Part shown: positions 8,634 through 15,460 of the stretch, in pieces
Position numbering within the stretch: position 1 is the first letter of the stretch
How the letters are laid out: each line of letters begins with the position of its first letter
IMG/VR virus record: IMGVR_UViG_3300017917_000050
Location: 1-22,298 of that record
DNA: 22,298 nucleotides
Strand: one strand, 5' to 3'
From: a virus
Made by a program: the position numbers and the translations under genes
Notes under the pieces: generated by a model
Told to the model about the DNA's origin: nothing
The model's database searches: none
What the model saw: the letters and a program-made list of their open reading frames with translations, nothing else

Positions 8634-9035
8634 TTACTTTGAAGCACCTTGACCAAGTGCATAGGCTGTTGCTCCTGTGGCCACAGCCGCATCGGATCTA
8701 AACAGGTCCATAACCTTAGGTTTGACAAAATTTACCACTTTGGCTTTTTCTTCGGGTGTAATCTTTGCAAATTTACTTCTAACCCATTTAGCCGCACCTG
8801 GAATTTTGTTAATCAATACGCTGATCAATACACCCACAGCAATATCAATGTAGTCGTCATCGGTTAATTTGCTTGGGTCACCGCCAGTTTTATCTACATA
8901 AGTTTTTGCAACCTTATAAATTTCATAGGCACTCCATGCTGTAAACGCCCAGGAAATCAAACTAGGAACAGCCGCAAGTAATGGAATTACTTCGTCTAAT
9001 TTTTCACGTTCGGTGACAATTTCGTATGCTCGCAT
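8634..9035 (-). CDS. Small membrane-type protein with MRAYEIVTE N-terminus
   Basis: A 133-aa protein of unknown function. Two hydrophobic stretches are visible: about 16-46 (VIPLLAAVPSLISWAFTAW and following) and 64-80 (DIAVGVLISVLINKIPG), then a basic segment AAKWVRSKFAKITPEEKAK and an Ala/Gly-rich C-terminus. The first nine residues, MRAYEIVTE, resemble the T4 capsid-targeting peptide MKTYQEFIAE, after which the gp21 protease cuts. This could be an internal head protein delivered with the DNA, perhaps acting on the host membrane; holin-like function is an alternative. It is the last gene of the late block, 13 nt after the 629-aa gene and followed by a strong terminator. The start ATG 9035 is the only good one. 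Confidence 0.6.
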   Translation of the reverse strand: MRAYEIVTEREKLDEVIPLLAAVPSLISWAFTAWSAYEIYKVAKTYVDKTGGDPSKLTDDDYIDIAVGVLISVLINKIPGAAKWVRSKFAKITPEEKAKVVNFVKPKVMDLFRSDAAVATGATAYALGQGASK

Positions 9036-9048
9036 AATTTACTCTAAA

Positions 9049-10938
9049 TTAAAAGTCTTGTCTATCTGCATTGGCGGCGCCTTGCTGTACCGGTGCGCTG
9101 GCTAATGCAGGATTATTTGGTGTTCTTGATCTAAACTGCTGACTTTTTCCCTGTGCTTGTAGCAAGGCTTGACTAGCAGTAGCATATTCTGGGTCGCCTG
9201 GATTTACGGTCTTACCATTATATTGAATAGGACCTTCAGGTTTTCCCATCTTTATAGTTCCTTGAACGCTAGATGAACTTTTTGTAGTTGTTGCAGTAGG
9301 TTTGGCCGGATTAGCCGGTGTTGCCTGTGCTGTTGCGGCTGGTGCTGGAGTCTTTTGTCCAGTTTCTGGATTTGTTGTACTGCCATCTGGGTTCTTGATT
9401 GATACATTCTGACCTTGTGCATTTACACCAGTTGCTGGATTTGCGCCGCCGCCTGCTGCCTTGGCTTTTTGTAAAGCAGTTGACGTTGCAGGGCCAAACT
9501 TTCCATCAACTGCAATACCTGCGGCTTGTTGGAATTTTTTAATAGCATCTTCTAATTCTTTGGCTGTGGTTGCATCTGCGGCTTCTTGTATAGCGCCTTG
9601 CATTGTTTCAAAATCTGGCTGTGTTTGCTCTTTAGCACTTAGTCTTTCAACAACTTGACTGGCAAATTGGCCTGCATGATCACCAAATCTTTTTTCAACA
9701 GCAATTTTTACACCCTCTTCTCCTTTAGGAAAAGTTCCCTGTTCTTGATCATACATGCTCATAATAAACTCAACAACTTGACGTGCATCGGGAGCCTGTT
9801 GCGGTTGTTGTTGTGGCATGTCATATTCAAATGTAGAAACGTCATCTAAGTGGCTTTCAAAATCTGCCAAGTGATTATGTTCTTCTAGATCTTCATCATC
9901 GCAGACGCATTCTTTCTTTGGTCTATCGCAGGCATCACAATAATCCGATTTGCCTTCTCCTACTAGATCTTCGTAGCCTAATGCCTGTGGTTGATCTACT
10001 AGTCTGTAAATGAATGGGAATACAGATTTGAGTTCTTCATTGAATGTGCGGATTGTTAATGCGTCAACCCAAGTATTAACTGTTTCTTCAGGAATTGGTA
10101 AATTGCGAGAAGGTTTAAAACTTTCTGCAAATTCTGCATAATAACTTTGACGCTGTAGTTTGGAAATCTGTTCTTTAATGTCGGAGATACGAGTTAATAC
10201 TAAATCGGAAATATCACTTAGTGCTTCTTGTAGACCGTTACGTTGAGTGTAGTTTTTAAACTGACGTAACTTACTGAGTTCTTCACTTAGGCTAGAAATA
10301 TGTGTGCCAATTGCATCATAAACAGTACCGCCATTGGCTACGTGAGTGGCCATTGCACGAGCACCGTTCAAGTGACGATGTGGATAACGGAATCTTTCTC
10401 CAGCGGCATTTTCGATATAAATGCTGTCAATGTGCATTGTACGTCCTGCTGGAATAGCATAATTAACTGGTTGACTGTGCTTGACGATAATTTTCGCCTC
10501 GCCCATGTCTTGGAAACTGGTCTTACTAGTTCCCCACAATTTTGATTCACTCATTTTTATATCTCCGTTTTCCTGTGCTAGATACTCGTAATCTCTTTTA
10601 TCTAGATTTGTTTTTGTAATATCTCTAGTGTCAAAGTTCAGCATGTTTGATTTGGCAAACATACGCAATTCTTTTAAAAATTTATACCAATCGTTTTTAG
10701 CATCAAGATGCTGTCCTTCAACCATAGATTCGCTGTAAATTACAGTTAGGCTTTTGTCATCTACTTTAATATTAACATGTCCTAAACTAGCACCTTCGTG
10801 TGTAAAATCTAAATCAAAAAACCGTGCTCGTGCAGGGTCTGTAATAACAACGCCTGCTTGATCTCCTAATTTTACATTGGAAAATCTACTGCGTACTTTG
10901 TTAAACAAATCGGTTGAAATTGTGGTCAAATCTTTCAT
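9049..10938 (-). CDS. Multidomain protein with zinc knuckle and peptidoglycan-binding repeat
   Basis: A 629-aa protein. Residues 1-128 form a first domain (LFNKVRSRFSNVKLGDQAG). Residues 129-330 form a second (MSESKLWGTSKTSFQDMGEAK; RFRYPHRHLNGARAMATHV; coiled segment 215-265). CDACDRPKKECVC (334-346) is a CxxC...CxC zinc knuckle. A Gln-rich linker is followed by a PG_binding_1-like repeat, IKKFQQAAGIAVDGKFGPATSTALQ (about 466-490), then a long Pro/Ala/Thr-rich, low-complexity tail. No lysozyme or amidase catalytic domain is visible, so it is not a standard endolysin; a virion structural or injected protein is more likely. ATG 10938 sits 5 nt after an ATAAATA box. An internal ATG at 10554 (residue 129) with GGAG eight bases upstream could give a 501-aa second product. 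Confidence 0.7.
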   Translation of the reverse strand: MKDLTTISTDLFNKVRSRFSNVKLGDQAGVVITDPARARFFDLDFTHEGASLGHVNIKVDDKSLTVIYSESMVEGQHLDAKNDWYKFLKELRMFAKSNMLNFDTRDITKTNLDKRDYEYLAQENGDIKMSESKLWGTSKTSFQDMGEAKIIVKHSQPVNYAIPAGRTMHIDSIYIENAAGERFRYPHRHLNGARAMATHVANGGTVYDAIGTHISSLSEELSKLRQFKNYTQRNGLQEALSDISDLVLTRISDIKEQISKLQRQSYYAEFAESFKPSRNLPIPEETVNTWVDALTIRTFNEELKSVFPFIYRLVDQPQALGYEDLVGEGKSDYCDACDRPKKECVCDDEDLEEHNHLADFESHLDDVSTFEYDMPQQQPQQAPDARQVVEFIMSMYDQEQGTFPKGEEGVKIAVEKRFGDHAGQFASQVVERLSAKEQTQPDFETMQGAIQEAADATTAKELEDAIKKFQQAAGIAVDGKFGPATSTALQKAKAAGGGANPATGVNAQGQNVSIKNPDGSTTNPETGQKTPAPAATAQATPANPAKPTATTTKSSSSVQGTIKMGKPEGPIQYNGKTVNPGDPEYATASQALLQAQGKSQQFRSRTPNNPALASAPVQQGAANADRQDF

Positions 10939-10943
10939 AGTAG

Positions 10944-10950
10944 TATTTAT
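10944..10950 (-). promoter_or_regulatory. Late box ATAAATA overlapping the terminase stop codon
   Basis: The minus strand reads TAATAAATACTACTATG: the TAA stop of gp17, an ATAAATA box, 5 nt, then the start codon of the 629-aa gene. The CTACTAT extension is shared with the box before the sugar cassette. Confidence 0.55.
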
Positions 10951-12545
10951 TAGAATCCTGTTGAAACAAATATGGGCATTGGGGGTTCAAAATCACCGTC
11001 ATCGTCGTCTAATCTTCCGCTCATGACTTCAAATACACGCTGATCCCAATCTGCCATAACTGCGCTCATACGTACTGCTAACAGCATAGCACTGACTAGA
11101 TCGTCAGTTTCCCCGCTTTTTGCTTTAAAACTAATACCGCTGGCTATAAATGCTTTTAACTCGCTGATCAATGCTCTAGAATGTATTTTCATTTTACCCG
11201 ATTCAACTAGATGCTTTAAACGACTGCAAGCAGATATTTTGCTACGATGAGTGGTATTAAATCCTTTACGGAATTTTCGTACATGACCTTTGCGTATAGG
11301 CTCTGCTACAAAAAGTCCTGGTATATTTTCTTCGCCTACATTCTTAATAACAATTAAAGCGGCTTCGCCTACTGTATTATTTTCCACACTCCAGTAGATA
11401 TTTTGTCCCTGCATTTTAGGACAGGCTTCTGCAATATACTTGTTAATATCTTTTAATATTTTAATCTGTCCTTCTATGGCAGTGGTATTATGATGCCATT
11501 CTGCAACCTGTTCCATACTTGGTAATTCAATAACCTGTATGGCCGCGTAGTTACCTCCAGTGCCTAGCGCAGGGTCCAGGGCCACAGCATAAATCATATC
11601 ATCTTTAGGCTGTTTGTACCATCGGCACTGTCCCATTTTTAAGATAGGTTCTTTACCCTCTAAGCCAGCCAAGCAAATACTGTTAATCAGTGTTTCGTCA
11701 TAGACTAAGAATTCGCAGCCGTATTCACGACGAAAACGTTCTTCGCCAATACGGCCCATTTCAACCTGTTTCCAGTCTTCGTTACGATCGGGATGTTCCC
11801 ACCACTCTGCTTTAAACGAATGGAATCCATTTATACCTAATTCAGTTTCGTTGCCATACTCGTCAAATTTCTTTTCTGCTTCTTTCCAAATAATAGCAAA
11901 TGTATCTTCGTCTGAGTTAGGTGTTGATGTAATAATTGCTCGTCCACCGGTGGCTAGTGTGGGTGATATGGAAGTCCAAAACTCTTCCGCAATGTTTGGT
12001 TGTACAAATGCAAACTCATCACAGTATAGTAAGGATATTGACATACCGCGACCAGTGTTGCCAGTAGTAGTTGCTGATACAATACGTGATCCATTATCAA
12101 ATTCAATGCTCCCTTTGTTATAGTTTGTTACGCCACAGCGTATGTGATCCGGACAGTCTTCATAGGCATAGCGTATGCGTTGCATAATTTCCTGCGAACC
12201 TGTGTATTTGTGTGCGGCCACTAGAATAGTTTGATCTGGATGAAACATAGCATACCATAACAAATAACCAGCGGCACAGGTTGTTTTACCACTTTGGCGT
12301 GGTAGCATATTAATATTAAATCTGTGATTATGATAACTTTCTAACAGCCTAATTTGATAGTCAAACGGCTCAAATAGTAGTTTACCCTTTACTGGATGTT
12401 GTATAAAAAAGAAATGTTTGGCAAAATACAGATAACCAGTGTCTGGATCGGCACACTGCGAAAGGTCGTGGATCTGTTGTTCTGTAAAACGTTCTTGGCG
12501 ATTAGCCTTTTTGATTAATACGCCGTCTAATGATTTGCTAGCCAT
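10950..12545 (-). CDS. 17: Terminase large subunit gp17
   Basis: This 531-aa DNA-packaging motor protein has an ATPase domain and a nuclease domain. The adenine-binding segment FEPFDYQIRLL is at 58-68, Walker A LPRQSGKTT at 81-89, Walker B LLYCDE at 172-177 (D176, E177), and coupling motif TSTPN at 206-210. The RNase H-like nuclease has D324 (VALDPALG), E388 (SVENNT) and D481/D482 (ETDDLVSA), equivalent in pattern to T4 gp17 D401, E458 and D542. It docks on the portal, cuts concatemers and pumps DNA into the prohead. It is somewhat shorter than T4 gp17 (610 aa), mainly at the N-terminus. A UUCG terminator and a TTAAATA box lie directly upstream, so gp17 seems to start a new late transcript separate from gp16. 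Confidence 0.96.
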   Translation of the reverse strand: MASKSLDGVLIKKANRQERFTEQQIHDLSQCADPDTGYLYFAKHFFFIQHPVKGKLLFEPFDYQIRLLESYHNHRFNINMLPRQSGKTTCAAGYLLWYAMFHPDQTILVAAHKYTGSQEIMQRIRYAYEDCPDHIRCGVTNYNKGSIEFDNGSRIVSATTTGNTGRGMSISLLYCDEFAFVQPNIAEEFWTSISPTLATGGRAIITSTPNSDEDTFAIIWKEAEKKFDEYGNETELGINGFHSFKAEWWEHPDRNEDWKQVEMGRIGEERFRREYGCEFLVYDETLINSICLAGLEGKEPILKMGQCRWYKQPKDDMIYAVALDPALGTGGNYAAIQVIELPSMEQVAEWHHNTTAIEGQIKILKDINKYIAEACPKMQGQNIYWSVENNTVGEAALIVIKNVGEENIPGLFVAEPIRKGHVRKFRKGFNTTHRSKISACSRLKHLVESGKMKIHSRALISELKAFIASGISFKAKSGETDDLVSAMLLAVRMSAVMADWDQRVFEVMSGRLDDDDGDFEPPMPIFVSTGF

Positions 12546-12631: not shown

Positions 12632-13885
12632 TTATTTAGAACCCATCATTCCGCGTGGCTTTCCAAGGCCGGGTGTGCCGCCGATTGGGTGACCGTACAT
12701 ACCATCGCGCTCTTCACCTTTGCTGTTGCGCCATTTTCCATCTGGACCTTTCTTTAAAGGCTCTTTTGTCTGGTAGTCTTTGGGAATATGCTCTGCTGAA
12801 TCAGAGCCTTCGCTAGTTGATTCTCTCCAGCCTTGGCTTTGATCTGATAGACTACCTAACTTAATTAAGTTTTGTTTATTCTTTTTAAGACCAGGCATAT
12901 ACTTTGCCATCTCAGGATCTTTCTTAATTAATACTTCAAGCTCTTGTATTTTCTTTTCTATTGCGGCATGTGCTTTGTCTGATAACTTATGTGTGTCAGG
13001 GCCATATCTACCGTCTGGATTTTTCATTAGAGCTTCTCCAGCGGCACGATCTGCTGGCTCTCCGTATATTGCTAGTATTCTTCCTACTTCTTTTTGAAGA
13101 TTTGTTACAGCATCTGTTTTAAGATTTGTTTTAAACCCGGTAGTTGTTTTTTCATCGGGAGTCATACTAAAATCTCTTGGCTCCATCGGAACACTACCTT
13201 CTTTAATTTCACGCCACATAGCGTCTAACTGTTTACGAATACTAGACTCACGCACAGCCATTGCATTATCACCGTCTTGTGCCTTAGCATATTGATTCTT
13301 TTCTCTGTTAATGCCGCCAGATAGGTCTTTGACCATTGTATTATGATCACTGTACTGCTCGTCTGGTTCATTAGCATATTCTTCTTCAGCCTGTGTATAG
13401 CCGCTAGGATCCTTAACACGAATGTCTGCTGGATCTTTTGGTTCTTGCATGCCGCCGCCTGCATCAGAAGTTACACTGTCAACACCTGCATAGGCTTCTT
13501 CTGGCTCATTGGCAAAGTCTTTTTTAATGCCTGCGTTACGAATTAAATCTTTAATTTGATCCATGCCGCGATCACCGTCTGAGCCTGCTGGGGACATATC
13601 CGGTTTATCGCCACCGCTTATCTTAGTTACTTTAATTGGCATATCTAAACCAACTGCTGGCATAGGCATAGCCTGTGGTGCATGATCTAAACCATGTTCG
13701 CCACCTCTCATTAAATTTAACAGTTCTTTGATATTGTCAACGCCCTGTGCATTTAAACTTACATTCATAGAAACGTTGCCTGGAGGAGTCATACCAGGAC
13801 TCATACCACATTCTTCTACATTTTCATTTAGTTGTTGCTTTTCAACATTGCCGTCGACAATGCCTAATAATTTTTTCATGTCCAT
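12632..13885 (-). CDS. Uncharacterised repeat-bearing protein, probably virion-associated
   Basis: This 417-aa hydrophilic protein has no domain I recognise. Visible features: MDMKKLLGIVDG start; two short helical repeats, NIKELLNLMRGG (51-62) and QIKDLIRNAGI (110-120); two longer repeats around FANEPEEAYAGVDSV (124-138) and YANEPDEQYSDHNTM (170-184), the second followed by VKDLSGGINREKNQYAKAQ; a helical region 255-345; and a Gly/Pro/Met-rich C-terminus. The low hydrophobicity, repeats and position between gp16 and gp17 fit a head-internal or scaffold-like protein, but this is inference. ATG 13885 lies 2 nt after the upstream stop, with AAAGGA nearby; ATG 13879 (MKKLL) is an alternative. A UUCG terminator follows the gene. 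Confidence 0.65.
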   Translation of the reverse strand: MDMKKLLGIVDGNVEKQQLNENVEECGMSPGMTPPGNVSMNVSLNAQGVDNIKELLNLMRGGEHGLDHAPQAMPMPAVGLDMPIKVTKISGGDKPDMSPAGSDGDRGMDQIKDLIRNAGIKKDFANEPEEAYAGVDSVTSDAGGGMQEPKDPADIRVKDPSGYTQAEEEYANEPDEQYSDHNTMVKDLSGGINREKNQYAKAQDGDNAMAVRESSIRKQLDAMWREIKEGSVPMEPRDFSMTPDEKTTTGFKTNLKTDAVTNLQKEVGRILAIYGEPADRAAGEALMKNPDGRYGPDTHKLSDKAHAAIEKKIQELEVLIKKDPEMAKYMPGLKKNKQNLIKLGSLSDQSQGWRESTSEGSDSAEHIPKDYQTKEPLKKGPDGKWRNSKGEERDGMYGHPIGGTPGLGKPRGMMGSK

Positions 13886-13887
13886 GA

Positions 13888-14493
13888 TTATTTTTTTCCT
13901 TTTAGAGTTTTGGAGCCAATTGGACTAATACTAGCCCCAGACTCTACAGTAGCCGGTGCTTTTTCGCTAGGAGCACTCTTGGCCAGTAATTGATCGTTAA
14001 CACCTTTATATTGTTCGCCGCCGTGTTTGGCATTTGCTAGATCTTTTAAGAAATTAGAAATGCGCTTTTCACCTACAATATCTTGATGATTGCTTGGTGG
14101 AGGATCACACTGACCAATTAATGGTTTGTTTTCTGCTTCTTTAAAGTTGTCTTCTTCTTGAGCACTAACCGCGCTTTCATTAGCGGCACGTACTACTACA
14201 GATCCTTCTTTGCAACCACAGCACTGACAAATATATTGTTCTAAAATTGCTGAAGTAGTTGGATAACGAACTTCAACATTAAATGCAGTTACATTTACAT
14301 TTTTTAATTGAGGAAAATCTGCTGGATTTTCTGTAATTGGTGCTCGCTTGCCTTTGCTGATGTTAGCCACTGAATAACGCTCTAGGGCAGTTTTTAATTT
14401 TTCATTAAATCCTTCGGCTAGATCGCCCGCTACCTTAACAGTAAAAGCGTATGTTTTTTTACTCTCAATCAAATAATCTGCAAATGTTTTCAT
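13888..14493 (-). CDS. Probable internal head protein with capsid-targeting-like N-terminus
   Basis: A 201-aa protein, mostly uncharacterised. The N-terminus MKTFADYLIESKK closely resembles the T4 internal-protein capsid-targeting sequence MKTYQEFIAE, including a hydrophobic-x-Glu-small cleavage site (LIE|S) for the gp21 prohead protease. Further on are AFTVKVAGDLAEGFNEKLKTAL, VNVTAFNVEVRYP, a CQCCGCKEG cysteine cluster (about residues 88-96) that could bind a metal, and a disordered Lys/Ser/Ala-rich tail. I infer that it is packaged in the head and trimmed. ATG 14493 is preferred over GTG 14505, because it follows GGGGAT at good spacing and gives the canonical peptide. An ATAAATA box overlaps the gp16 stop upstream. 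Confidence 0.65.
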   Translation of the reverse strand: MKTFADYLIESKKTYAFTVKVAGDLAEGFNEKLKTALERYSVANISKGKRAPITENPADFPQLKNVNVTAFNVEVRYPTTSAILEQYICQCCGCKEGSVVVRAANESAVSAQEEDNFKEAENKPLIGQCDPPPSNHQDIVGEKRISNFLKDLANAKHGGEQYKGVNDQLLAKSAPSEKAPATVESGASISPIGSKTLKGKK

Positions 14494-14510
14494 AATTATC
14501 CCCACTACTG

Positions 14511-14517
14511 TATTTAT
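14511..14517 (-). promoter_or_regulatory. Late box ATAAATA overlapping the gp16 stop codon
   Basis: The minus strand reads ATAAATACAGTAGTGGGGATAATT before ATG 14493. The box lies 17 nt upstream of the start and leaves room for the GGGGAT ribosome-binding site. It overlaps the TAA of gp16. Confidence 0.5.
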
Positions 14518-15017
14518 TTCATATTCTTTAATTTTTCCAGTAGGCTGTTGCGATCTGTAATAAGGTATCCTTCTCCTTGTATGTCGTCATCTCCTGCTGG
14601 TTTTGCGTCTTGATCTAACTTCTGCTTTTTAAGTTGTAGTTCGATCATTTTTAACTTTTTGTCTATTTTTGCTGATTTAGCATCTATAGCATTTTTTAGT
14701 GCTGTCTGTGCTACTTCAAAAATTCTAGCACTGTAACGTGGTTCTACGTTCATACCTAAATCTACTAGATCTTCGTAGGCATCTGTGGCTTTCTTAGCCA
14801 ACTCGTCTAGTTCGCTGTCAGCAATATCGCCAAGGCCTTTCACCTGCGGCAGTGCGGCAGCGATCTTGTCAATGTCGCCCATTTCACGGAAAAGGTTTTC
14901 TGCTGGGGCATTATCTCTGGCTAACTGCTTTTCTGCTTTCCTGTTGTTCTTTTCTTCGGTTTTAACGATTTCTTGATTTTCAGGTAAGTTGAGTAATTCT
15001 TCAAGTTTTTTTGTCAT
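14514..15017 (-). CDS. 16: Terminase small subunit gp16
   Basis: This 167-aa protein matches the gp16 pattern of T4-like phages. A short N-terminal KKLEELLNLPE motif is followed by a variable Lys/Glu-rich segment. The central helical core runs DIDKIAAALPQVKGLGDIADSELDELAKKATDAYEDLVDLGMNVEPRYSARIFEVAQTALKNAI (in pieces, about 48-112), and then a coiled helix IDKKLKMIELQLKKQKLD. The C-terminal segment ends TDRNSLLEKLKNMK. Length equals T4 gp16 (164 aa). It forms the ring that recognises DNA and stimulates gp17 in packaging. It follows gp4 by 8 nt. Unlike T4, where 16 and 17 are adjacent, two unrelated genes and a terminator separate it from gp17 here. Confidence 0.85.
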   Translation of the reverse strand: MTKKLEELLNLPENQEIVKTEEKNNRKAEKQLARDNAPAENLFREMGDIDKIAAALPQVKGLGDIADSELDELAKKATDAYEDLVDLGMNVEPRYSARIFEVAQTALKNAIDAKSAKIDKKLKMIELQLKKQKLDQDAKPAGDDDIQGEGYLITDRNSLLEKLKNMK

Positions 15018-15025
15018 ACGTTTAC

Positions 15026-15460
15026 TTATCGCTTGCCGTTATAGAAAATATCGTTTTCCGAAACTACACGGAACAGTATTCCCTGTTGTTTGCACCATGC
15101 ACGGCAGGCTTCCCATTTAGCCATGTTTTTAATGTACGCGGCTTGATTGGTTTTACTGCGTCCAACTTTTTCTAATACTGCTTGACTGGCTGGTTTTACT
15201 TCCCACACTTCCGCATGTTTACGTCCATTTTTATCATTGTAGACTACGAAAAAATCCGGCACATAGATAGTGTGTTTACCAGTTAAAGGATCTCTGTAAG
15301 GGACTTTGACAACTTCACTACCCCACTTTTCTATAGATTGATTGTTGTCAAACATCTGCATCACGGCCCACTCCCAACTACTGCGATAAGTTGGAGTTCT
15401 ATTGCCCATATACTTGTCAGGGTTCTTTAGAGCAAATTTTCCCTGTGCAAATTTTTTCAT
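15026..15460 (-). CDS. 4: Head completion protein gp4 (nuclease-fold)
   Basis: A 144-aa protein close to T4 gp4 (150 aa). It begins with FAQGKFALKNPDKYMG and YRSSWEWAVMQMFD (25-38), where E30 fits the first acidic residue. It carries a PD-(D/E)xK signature: VPDF with D69, then EVWEVKP with E87 and K89. This restriction-endonuclease/TnsA-like fold is known for gp4-type proteins, which finish filled heads before tail attachment. The start ATG 15460 forms an ATGA overlap with the stop of the 127-aa gene, and gp16 follows after 8 nt. The catalytic residues look intact, so nuclease activity is possible. Confidence 0.85.
   Translation of the reverse strand: MKKFAQGKFALKNPDKYMGNRTPTYRSSWEWAVMQMFDNNQSIEKWGSEVVKVPYRDPLTGKHTIYVPDFFVVYNDKNGRKHAEVWEVKPASQAVLEKVGRSKTNQAAYIKNMAKWEACRAWCKQQGILFRVVSENDIFYNGKR

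Follow-up and report, generated by a model that had tools for sequence, protein, structure and literature searches.

A putative T4-type, cleavable capsid-targeting tag on a conserved core protein of large T4-superfamily phages

Short N-terminal tags that mark the internal proteins of T-even phages are already known (PMC12373910, PMC9026906). In the T4 internal protein IPIII, residues 4 and 7 of the tag chiefly determine targeting and residues 8 and 10 processing, and an Asp at position 10 blocks processing while targeting is kept (PMC9026906). The same source has the protease gp21 cutting after L/I-x-E and suggests that the CTS may let T4-like phages take in various proteins. The propeptide of the T4 capsid protein gp23 is 65 residues long (PMC5694885). 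The internal proteins of T4 are non-essential and diverse between phages (PMC12373910, PMC3012670), and Ip1-3 all inhibit GmrSD restriction enzymes (PMC12373910). A literature search, largely of partial texts, turned up no paper on such tags in the jumbo-phage group considered here or on Acb1, and no N-terminal proteomics for this clade.

The window, by which I mean the whole stretch of viral DNA that was analysed (22,298 bases), has head, tail and replication genes of T4-like character, most of them on the minus strand. One of its genes encodes a protein of 201 amino acids whose N-terminus is MKTFADYLIESKKTYAF, beginning MKTFADYLIE|SKKTYAF, with the bar at the predicted cut:

13888..14493, minus strand: coding sequence, 201 aa, an open reading frame with an ATG start; PHROG 14802 family; putative CTS-tagged core head protein
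14464..14493, minus strand: capsid-targeting-like tag MKTFADYLIE, residues 1-10, with aromatic residues at 4 and 7, Leu at 8 and Glu at 10; conserved in relatives (T4 functional positions from PMC9026906)
14461..14466, minus strand: predicted scissile bond Glu10|Ser11; [LI]xE[SAT] in relatives, and the same motif in the capsid cleavage column

A longer reading frame is available from a GTG at 14505; relatives start at or near the ATG instead. The protein matches the PHROG 14802 profile ("virion structural protein") over residues 1-162 with an E value of 3.1e-6, as do 79 of the 87 relatives in the alignment described below. Searching the phage collection by tblastn with the 201-aa protein gave matches in 14 records at 27-30% identity: Pseudomonas phage PA5oct and its kin, Agrobacterium phage Atu_ph07 and Sinorhizobium phage Phosso. 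Among viral contigs, relatives are encoded by 578 of the 600 pattern-matched stretches among the matches listed. By profile, the family was not found in nine T4-like genomes, T4 included. The Atu_ph07 homologue (L028:12001-12756) is annotated 87 bases too short, its upstream start giving MKTLQDYLTES, and one relative (L138) lies on a contig that bears the label Candidatus Pacearchaeota MAG but is probably phage sequence that was mis-binned.

The likeness to the tag of T4 IPI, IPII and IPIII (MKTYQEFIAE), pointed out in an earlier, sequence-only reading of this DNA, extends to the length of 10 residues at the N-terminus, the aromatic residues at 4 and 7, the Leu or Ile at 8 and the Glu at 10, and it is upheld by the relatives. 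When the query was the domain only, from residue 16 onward and so free of the tag, [LI]-x-E-[SAT] was found directly before the folded domain in all of 80 loci, these being the best 80 of at least 578 relatives, with distant relatives under-sampled. The 80 loci represent 68 distinct proteins, 67 of which match the regular expression [LI]xE[SAT]; in the exception (L079) an internal Met had been taken as the start, and the upstream start gives MKSFKEYLMES. The stretch ahead of the motif differs in length, so that the tags of these loci run from 8 to 12 residues. An alignment of 87 rows (A3) shows Glu at position 10 in 87, Leu at 8 in 86, Phe at 4 in 83 and Tyr or Phe at 7 in 69, and 66 of the 87 relatives, the window included, have [FY] at 4 and 7, [LI] at 8 and Glu at 10 together. 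About 55 of these rows were collected with a query that contained the tag, and the column counts therefore lean towards the tag, which makes the body-only count of 80 in 80 the fairer one. Conservation in A3 runs on beyond the predicted site, to K13, Y15 and F17, in part because the domain begins there. The residue after the predicted cut is mostly Ser in this family, unlike in the T4 internal proteins.

Two of the named homologues depart from the pattern. PA5oct has YYDA|S at the site, thus no L-x-E, and Phosso has YLSS|V; since the scissile Glu is missing from both, cleavage would not be universal in the family. By the precedent of IPIII, these two homologues could be targeted yet uncut.

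How much of this might be chance? The [LI]xE motif near an N-terminus proves nothing taken singly, since it is not enriched there: [LIVM]-x-E occurs within the first 14 residues in 13.2% of 302 ORFs of the related genome G002, compared with 12.8% of internal control windows, and in 13.0% of 369 ORFs of PA5oct, compared with 12.2%. The complete tag occurs well beyond what chance would give. At least 120 stretches in IMG/VR match a DNA pattern that codes for MK[ST-like]Fx[DE][FY]LxEA, and a complete scan of IMG/VR with the control, the same codons in reversed order, gave 2.

The profile phrog_2667, annotated as internal head protein, approaches the same question from the side of T4, where its matches to IPII and IPIII are confined to residues 1-14. 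It has matches, of modest E value (1.6e-6 to 5.5e-3), in 24 of 40 records and none in the other 16. In 23 of the 39 records other than T4, the single match is the N-terminus of the family gene, by coordinates that were checked. One of 14 control genomes matches, and the window itself is unmatched even at an E value of 10.

The sequence-only reading had named the gp21 protease and the cut sites of gp23 as the place to look for corroboration, and relatives supply it, the window being a fragment that shows neither gene. A gene of the gp21 type (Peptidase_S77) is present in 8 of 10 related records, and the two without it are fragments of 46 and 77 kb. Residues 62-66 of T4 gp23 are FLTE|A, that is, LTE65|A. 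The column aligned to this cut reads YLSE|S in G002 and FLVE|N in PA5oct, and each of the 8 loci that reach into the beginning of the capsid gene (one of them G002) has YLSE|S, HLVE|T or WLNE|T there, in every case LxE|[ST]. To judge from the residues, the tag ends (YL-x-E|S) in a site of the type seen in the capsid cleavage column. Like the cleavage site of gp23 it conforms to L/I-x-E|; unlike that site, at residue 65 of a capsid protein, it lies at residue 10 of a small protein.

As in T4, the tag stands on unrelated proteins, and the phage group has a gp21-type protease. Within single phages of the family the picture is mixed, as given below. Among the matches listed to the DNA pattern, 80 loci yielded 81 tagged ORFs. 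The family profile matches 13 of these, two of which (proteins of 91 aa, L259 and L279) owe the match solely to the tag, as a profile of the body misses them. The remaining 68 were reduced to 59 by dropping those that were short (<60 aa) or duplicate, and the bodies of these 59 non-redundant proteins from outside the family fall into at least 36 clusters. Pfam identifies among them Acb1 (anti-CBASS; E = 2.8e-23), GNAT acetyltransferases, cytidylyltransferase-like and HAD proteins, and lytic transglycosylase domains. The Acb1-like protein (L233:2104-2571, plus strand) begins MKTFREYLAE|A, its Pfam match begins at residue 21, and it also matches the solved Acb1 structure 7t26 (E = 3.1e-7). Other proteins of its contig are related to those of G002 and PA5oct. 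The single other relative of this protein that was found (L356) has no tag.

Tagged genes also occur more than once per locus. With a looser regular expression, 26 of the 80 loci have more than one, and the total is 110 hits as against 1 for the reversed motif, in loci every one of which had been selected for the tag. Five loci (L296, L249, L281, L285 and L240) have three or four tagged ORFs each, with different bodies, some of them close together and including GNAT-like ones. In three loci of the family (L266, L271 and L279) there is another small gene with a tag, unrelated to the family gene and on the same strand at a distance of about 1.5 kb; in L266 it falls between the family gene and the large terminase. 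No other ORF of G002 or PA5oct bears a convincing tag. A tag scan was made of eight records, six of which had been selected for the tag. As for isolates not selected in this way, P-SSM2 has two tagged genes, one a cytidylyltransferase, and Syn9 has one. The tagged genes of T4 are IPII, IPIII and gp61.1; the last, a hypothetical gene (AF158101, 18966-19130, minus strand), begins MKTFKEFIKE and lies near the IPII/IPIII tag in sequence. A loose regular expression for the T4 tag also picks up one further T4 ORF, presumably thymidylate synthase.

Over 18 genomes the looser pattern matched 15 times and its reversed control twice. Four of the 15 are the gene at 13888-14493 or its relatives, and three are a repeated sequence in Aeh1 that is unlike the tag. 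In the same scan the pattern was absent from S-PM2, S-SSM7, phiM12, PA5oct, Atu_ph07, Phosso, G017 and G018. A stricter DNA pattern, which misses the Ser codons AGY, was found in 5 of 17 records, always at the family gene.

The position of the gene is conserved too. Its neighbours in the window are:

14514..15017, minus strand: small terminase-like gene, directly upstream; PHROG 445/16202; synteny in 159 of 161 loci
12632..13885, minus strand: next gene, between the 201-aa coding sequence and the large terminase; no family match
10950..12545, minus strand: large terminase, downstream, one gene further; family match; synteny in 90 of 90 loci
15026..15460, minus strand: head-completion gene, gp4-like; PHROG 218 (head closure) and a TnsA-like Pfam domain

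The name gp4 for the last of these is my reading from its position and family. In a set of 178 loci, some of which overlap on one contig, the small terminase lies upstream in 159 of the 161 with enough flank and the large terminase downstream in 90 of 90. The gene at 13888-14493 is thus a core gene, between small and large terminase. PA5oct has the same gene order: sheath, tube, tube-like, head completion, small terminase, homologue, next gene, large terminase (for several of these names the basis is gene position and the MIJ3 record). Its homologue, EST35_0202 (QCG76083.1), is homologous over residues 1-127, with 26% identity over the alignment, and is marked ESI-MS/MS in the PA5oct record. 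The PA5oct list of proteins detected by mass spectrometry also marks enzymes such as ribonucleotide reductase and thymidylate synthase, so that detection of the homologue is weak evidence of a location in the head. The PA5oct gene placed like 12632..13885 was detected as well. The downstream gene was considered as a second cleaved protein and found unconvincing, with [LI]xE over a wide span in 65 of 95 distinct N-termini.

AlphaFold2, given the window protein and the 86 relatives of A3, predicts a helix at residues 4-11 (block pLDDT 73), a break at 12-14 and then a compact domain. The features of the body are:

14185..14451, minus strand: predicted ferredoxin-like beta-alpha-beta-beta-alpha-beta domain, residues 15-103; AlphaFold2, block pLDDT about 88-94 over residues 11-100
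14203..14229, minus strand: CQCCGCKEG, residues 89-97; cysteines not conserved
13891..14121, minus strand: tail, residues about 125-201, of low confidence and probably disordered; block pLDDT <=65
13912..13926, minus strand: SPIGS, residues 190-194, near the C-terminus; SP[IVML]GS in 40 of 87 relatives

In the model, a short detachable helix before a compact domain fits a cleavable tag, short of proof. The motif SP[IVML]GS may be a second short binding motif, to go by its recurrence in relatives. Foldseek against the PDB returned generic ferredoxin-like folds only (best E = 3.0e-4), and a search by sequence for homologues of solved structure found none (best E = 0.32). In a viral library Foldseek found the family itself and, as a weak lead at rank 23, Ip7 of phage MX01 (E = 1.8e-3).

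Conservation of the tag, its match to the capsid motif, the presence of the protease and the re-use of the tag on unrelated proteins together make a T4-type cleavable capsid-targeting tag the best reading of this N-terminus, as the sequence-only reading had proposed. An account of the whole protein can be built on it, one that I consider probable: a conserved head-interior protein of large phages of the T4 superfamily, targeted by its tag, trimmed by a gp21-type protease and with a constitutive job. The amphipathic tag, with its aromatic residues at 4 and 7, would dock the 201-aa protein onto the prohead core. The phage's gp21-type protease would then cut behind Glu10 (L-x-E|S), just as it would cut the major capsid protein, leaving a small ferredoxin-like domain and its flexible tail free within the head as it matures. 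There the mature protein would most likely serve head maturation, packaging or genome delivery constitutively and not as a host-specific anti-defence protein, given that its gene lies between the small and large terminase in nearly all relatives.

One could instead suppose that the N-terminal helix is never cleaved and serves to dock a protein of the neck, tail or packaging complex, with L-x-E-S kept for folding or binding. The neighbouring genes, which encode tail tube, neck-type and terminase proteins, would suit such a role, as would the conservation that extends past the site, the retention of the helix region without the Glu in PA5oct and Phosso, and the uniqueness of the tag in G002 along with the want of a strict match in PA5oct. 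I nevertheless think this rather unlikely, for a private docking helix leaves unexplained why the same tag stands before dozens of unrelated bodies, and Leu 8 and Glu 10 agree with the cut motif in these phages' own capsid protein. Less likely still, metal binding set aside, is the specific role that had been suggested for the protein before, in which it would be loaded and trimmed as described and then injected to counter host defences, as T4 IPI is. The inhibition of GmrSD by all three T4 internal proteins (PMC12373910) speaks for it, as do the tagged Acb1-like protein, whose phage contig encodes relatives of this clade's proteins, and the weak match to Ip7. Against it, T4 internal proteins are accessory and variable (non-essential and diverse; PMC12373910, PMC3012670), whereas this gene is core, syntenic in the terminase operon (159/161 and 90/90) and conserved across hundreds of contigs, and a host-specific anti-defence role is on that ground unlikely, though the protein may still be ejected. 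The conserved body and the predicted ferredoxin-like domain also set it apart from the T4 internal proteins. Family and domain profiles and Foldseek found no defence-related domain in the 201-aa protein.

The same earlier reading took CQCCGCKEG to be suited to metal binding, and a metal-binding protein built around CQCCGC might be imagined from the window protein, which has five cysteines, four of them within six residues. The relatives make this very improbable, and I have rejected it because the cysteines are not conserved: the segment has none in 24 of the 87, one in 23, two in 29, three in 8 and four in only 3. In the predicted domain, moreover, CQCCGC falls at the end of a helix.

To return to the putative capsid-targeting tag, it is about an even bet that it is no peculiarity of T-even phages but an address label in general use across the T4 superfamily, applied both to core head proteins and to a large cargo that would be pre-loaded in the head and enter the cell as infection begins. 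Candidates for such cargo are the at least 36 unrelated clusters, with their Acb1-like anti-CBASS enzyme, GNAT acetyltransferases, cytidylyltransferases and HAD-like proteins. If this is true, counter-defence proteins that are injected could be traced in sequences by the label, and injected phage proteins in general, pre-emptive anti-defence enzymes included, would become findable by a simple motif. The comparison also offers a testable function for the N-terminus of a widespread and unnamed core phage protein, and it suggests that head loading in the style of T4 is recognisable by sequence far from T4.

A few other features were seen along the way. PA5oct has a second class of N-termini, MKI-x-D-I...LxE, 4 of 5 members of which were detected by mass spectrometry as compared with 86 of 394 other proteins (Fisher p 0.010), an exploratory figure in that the regular expression was devised after examples had been seen. 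In the window, a hydrophobic protein of 133 aa (8634-9035, minus strand) starts MRAYEIVTE, and similar starts, of the form M[KR]-x-x-[DE]-I...E, are seen on PA5oct proteins, the 4 of 5 just mentioned. A virion structural-like protein next to it (9049-10938, minus strand; PHROG 13484) has a peptidoglycan-binding domain too. Finally, the contig of the Acb1-like protein contains a tandem array (L233:3978-8389) of more than 12 similar genes for proteins of about 80 aa that end in forms of LTPEEVMEIELSR, with a CxGCVL-like motif.
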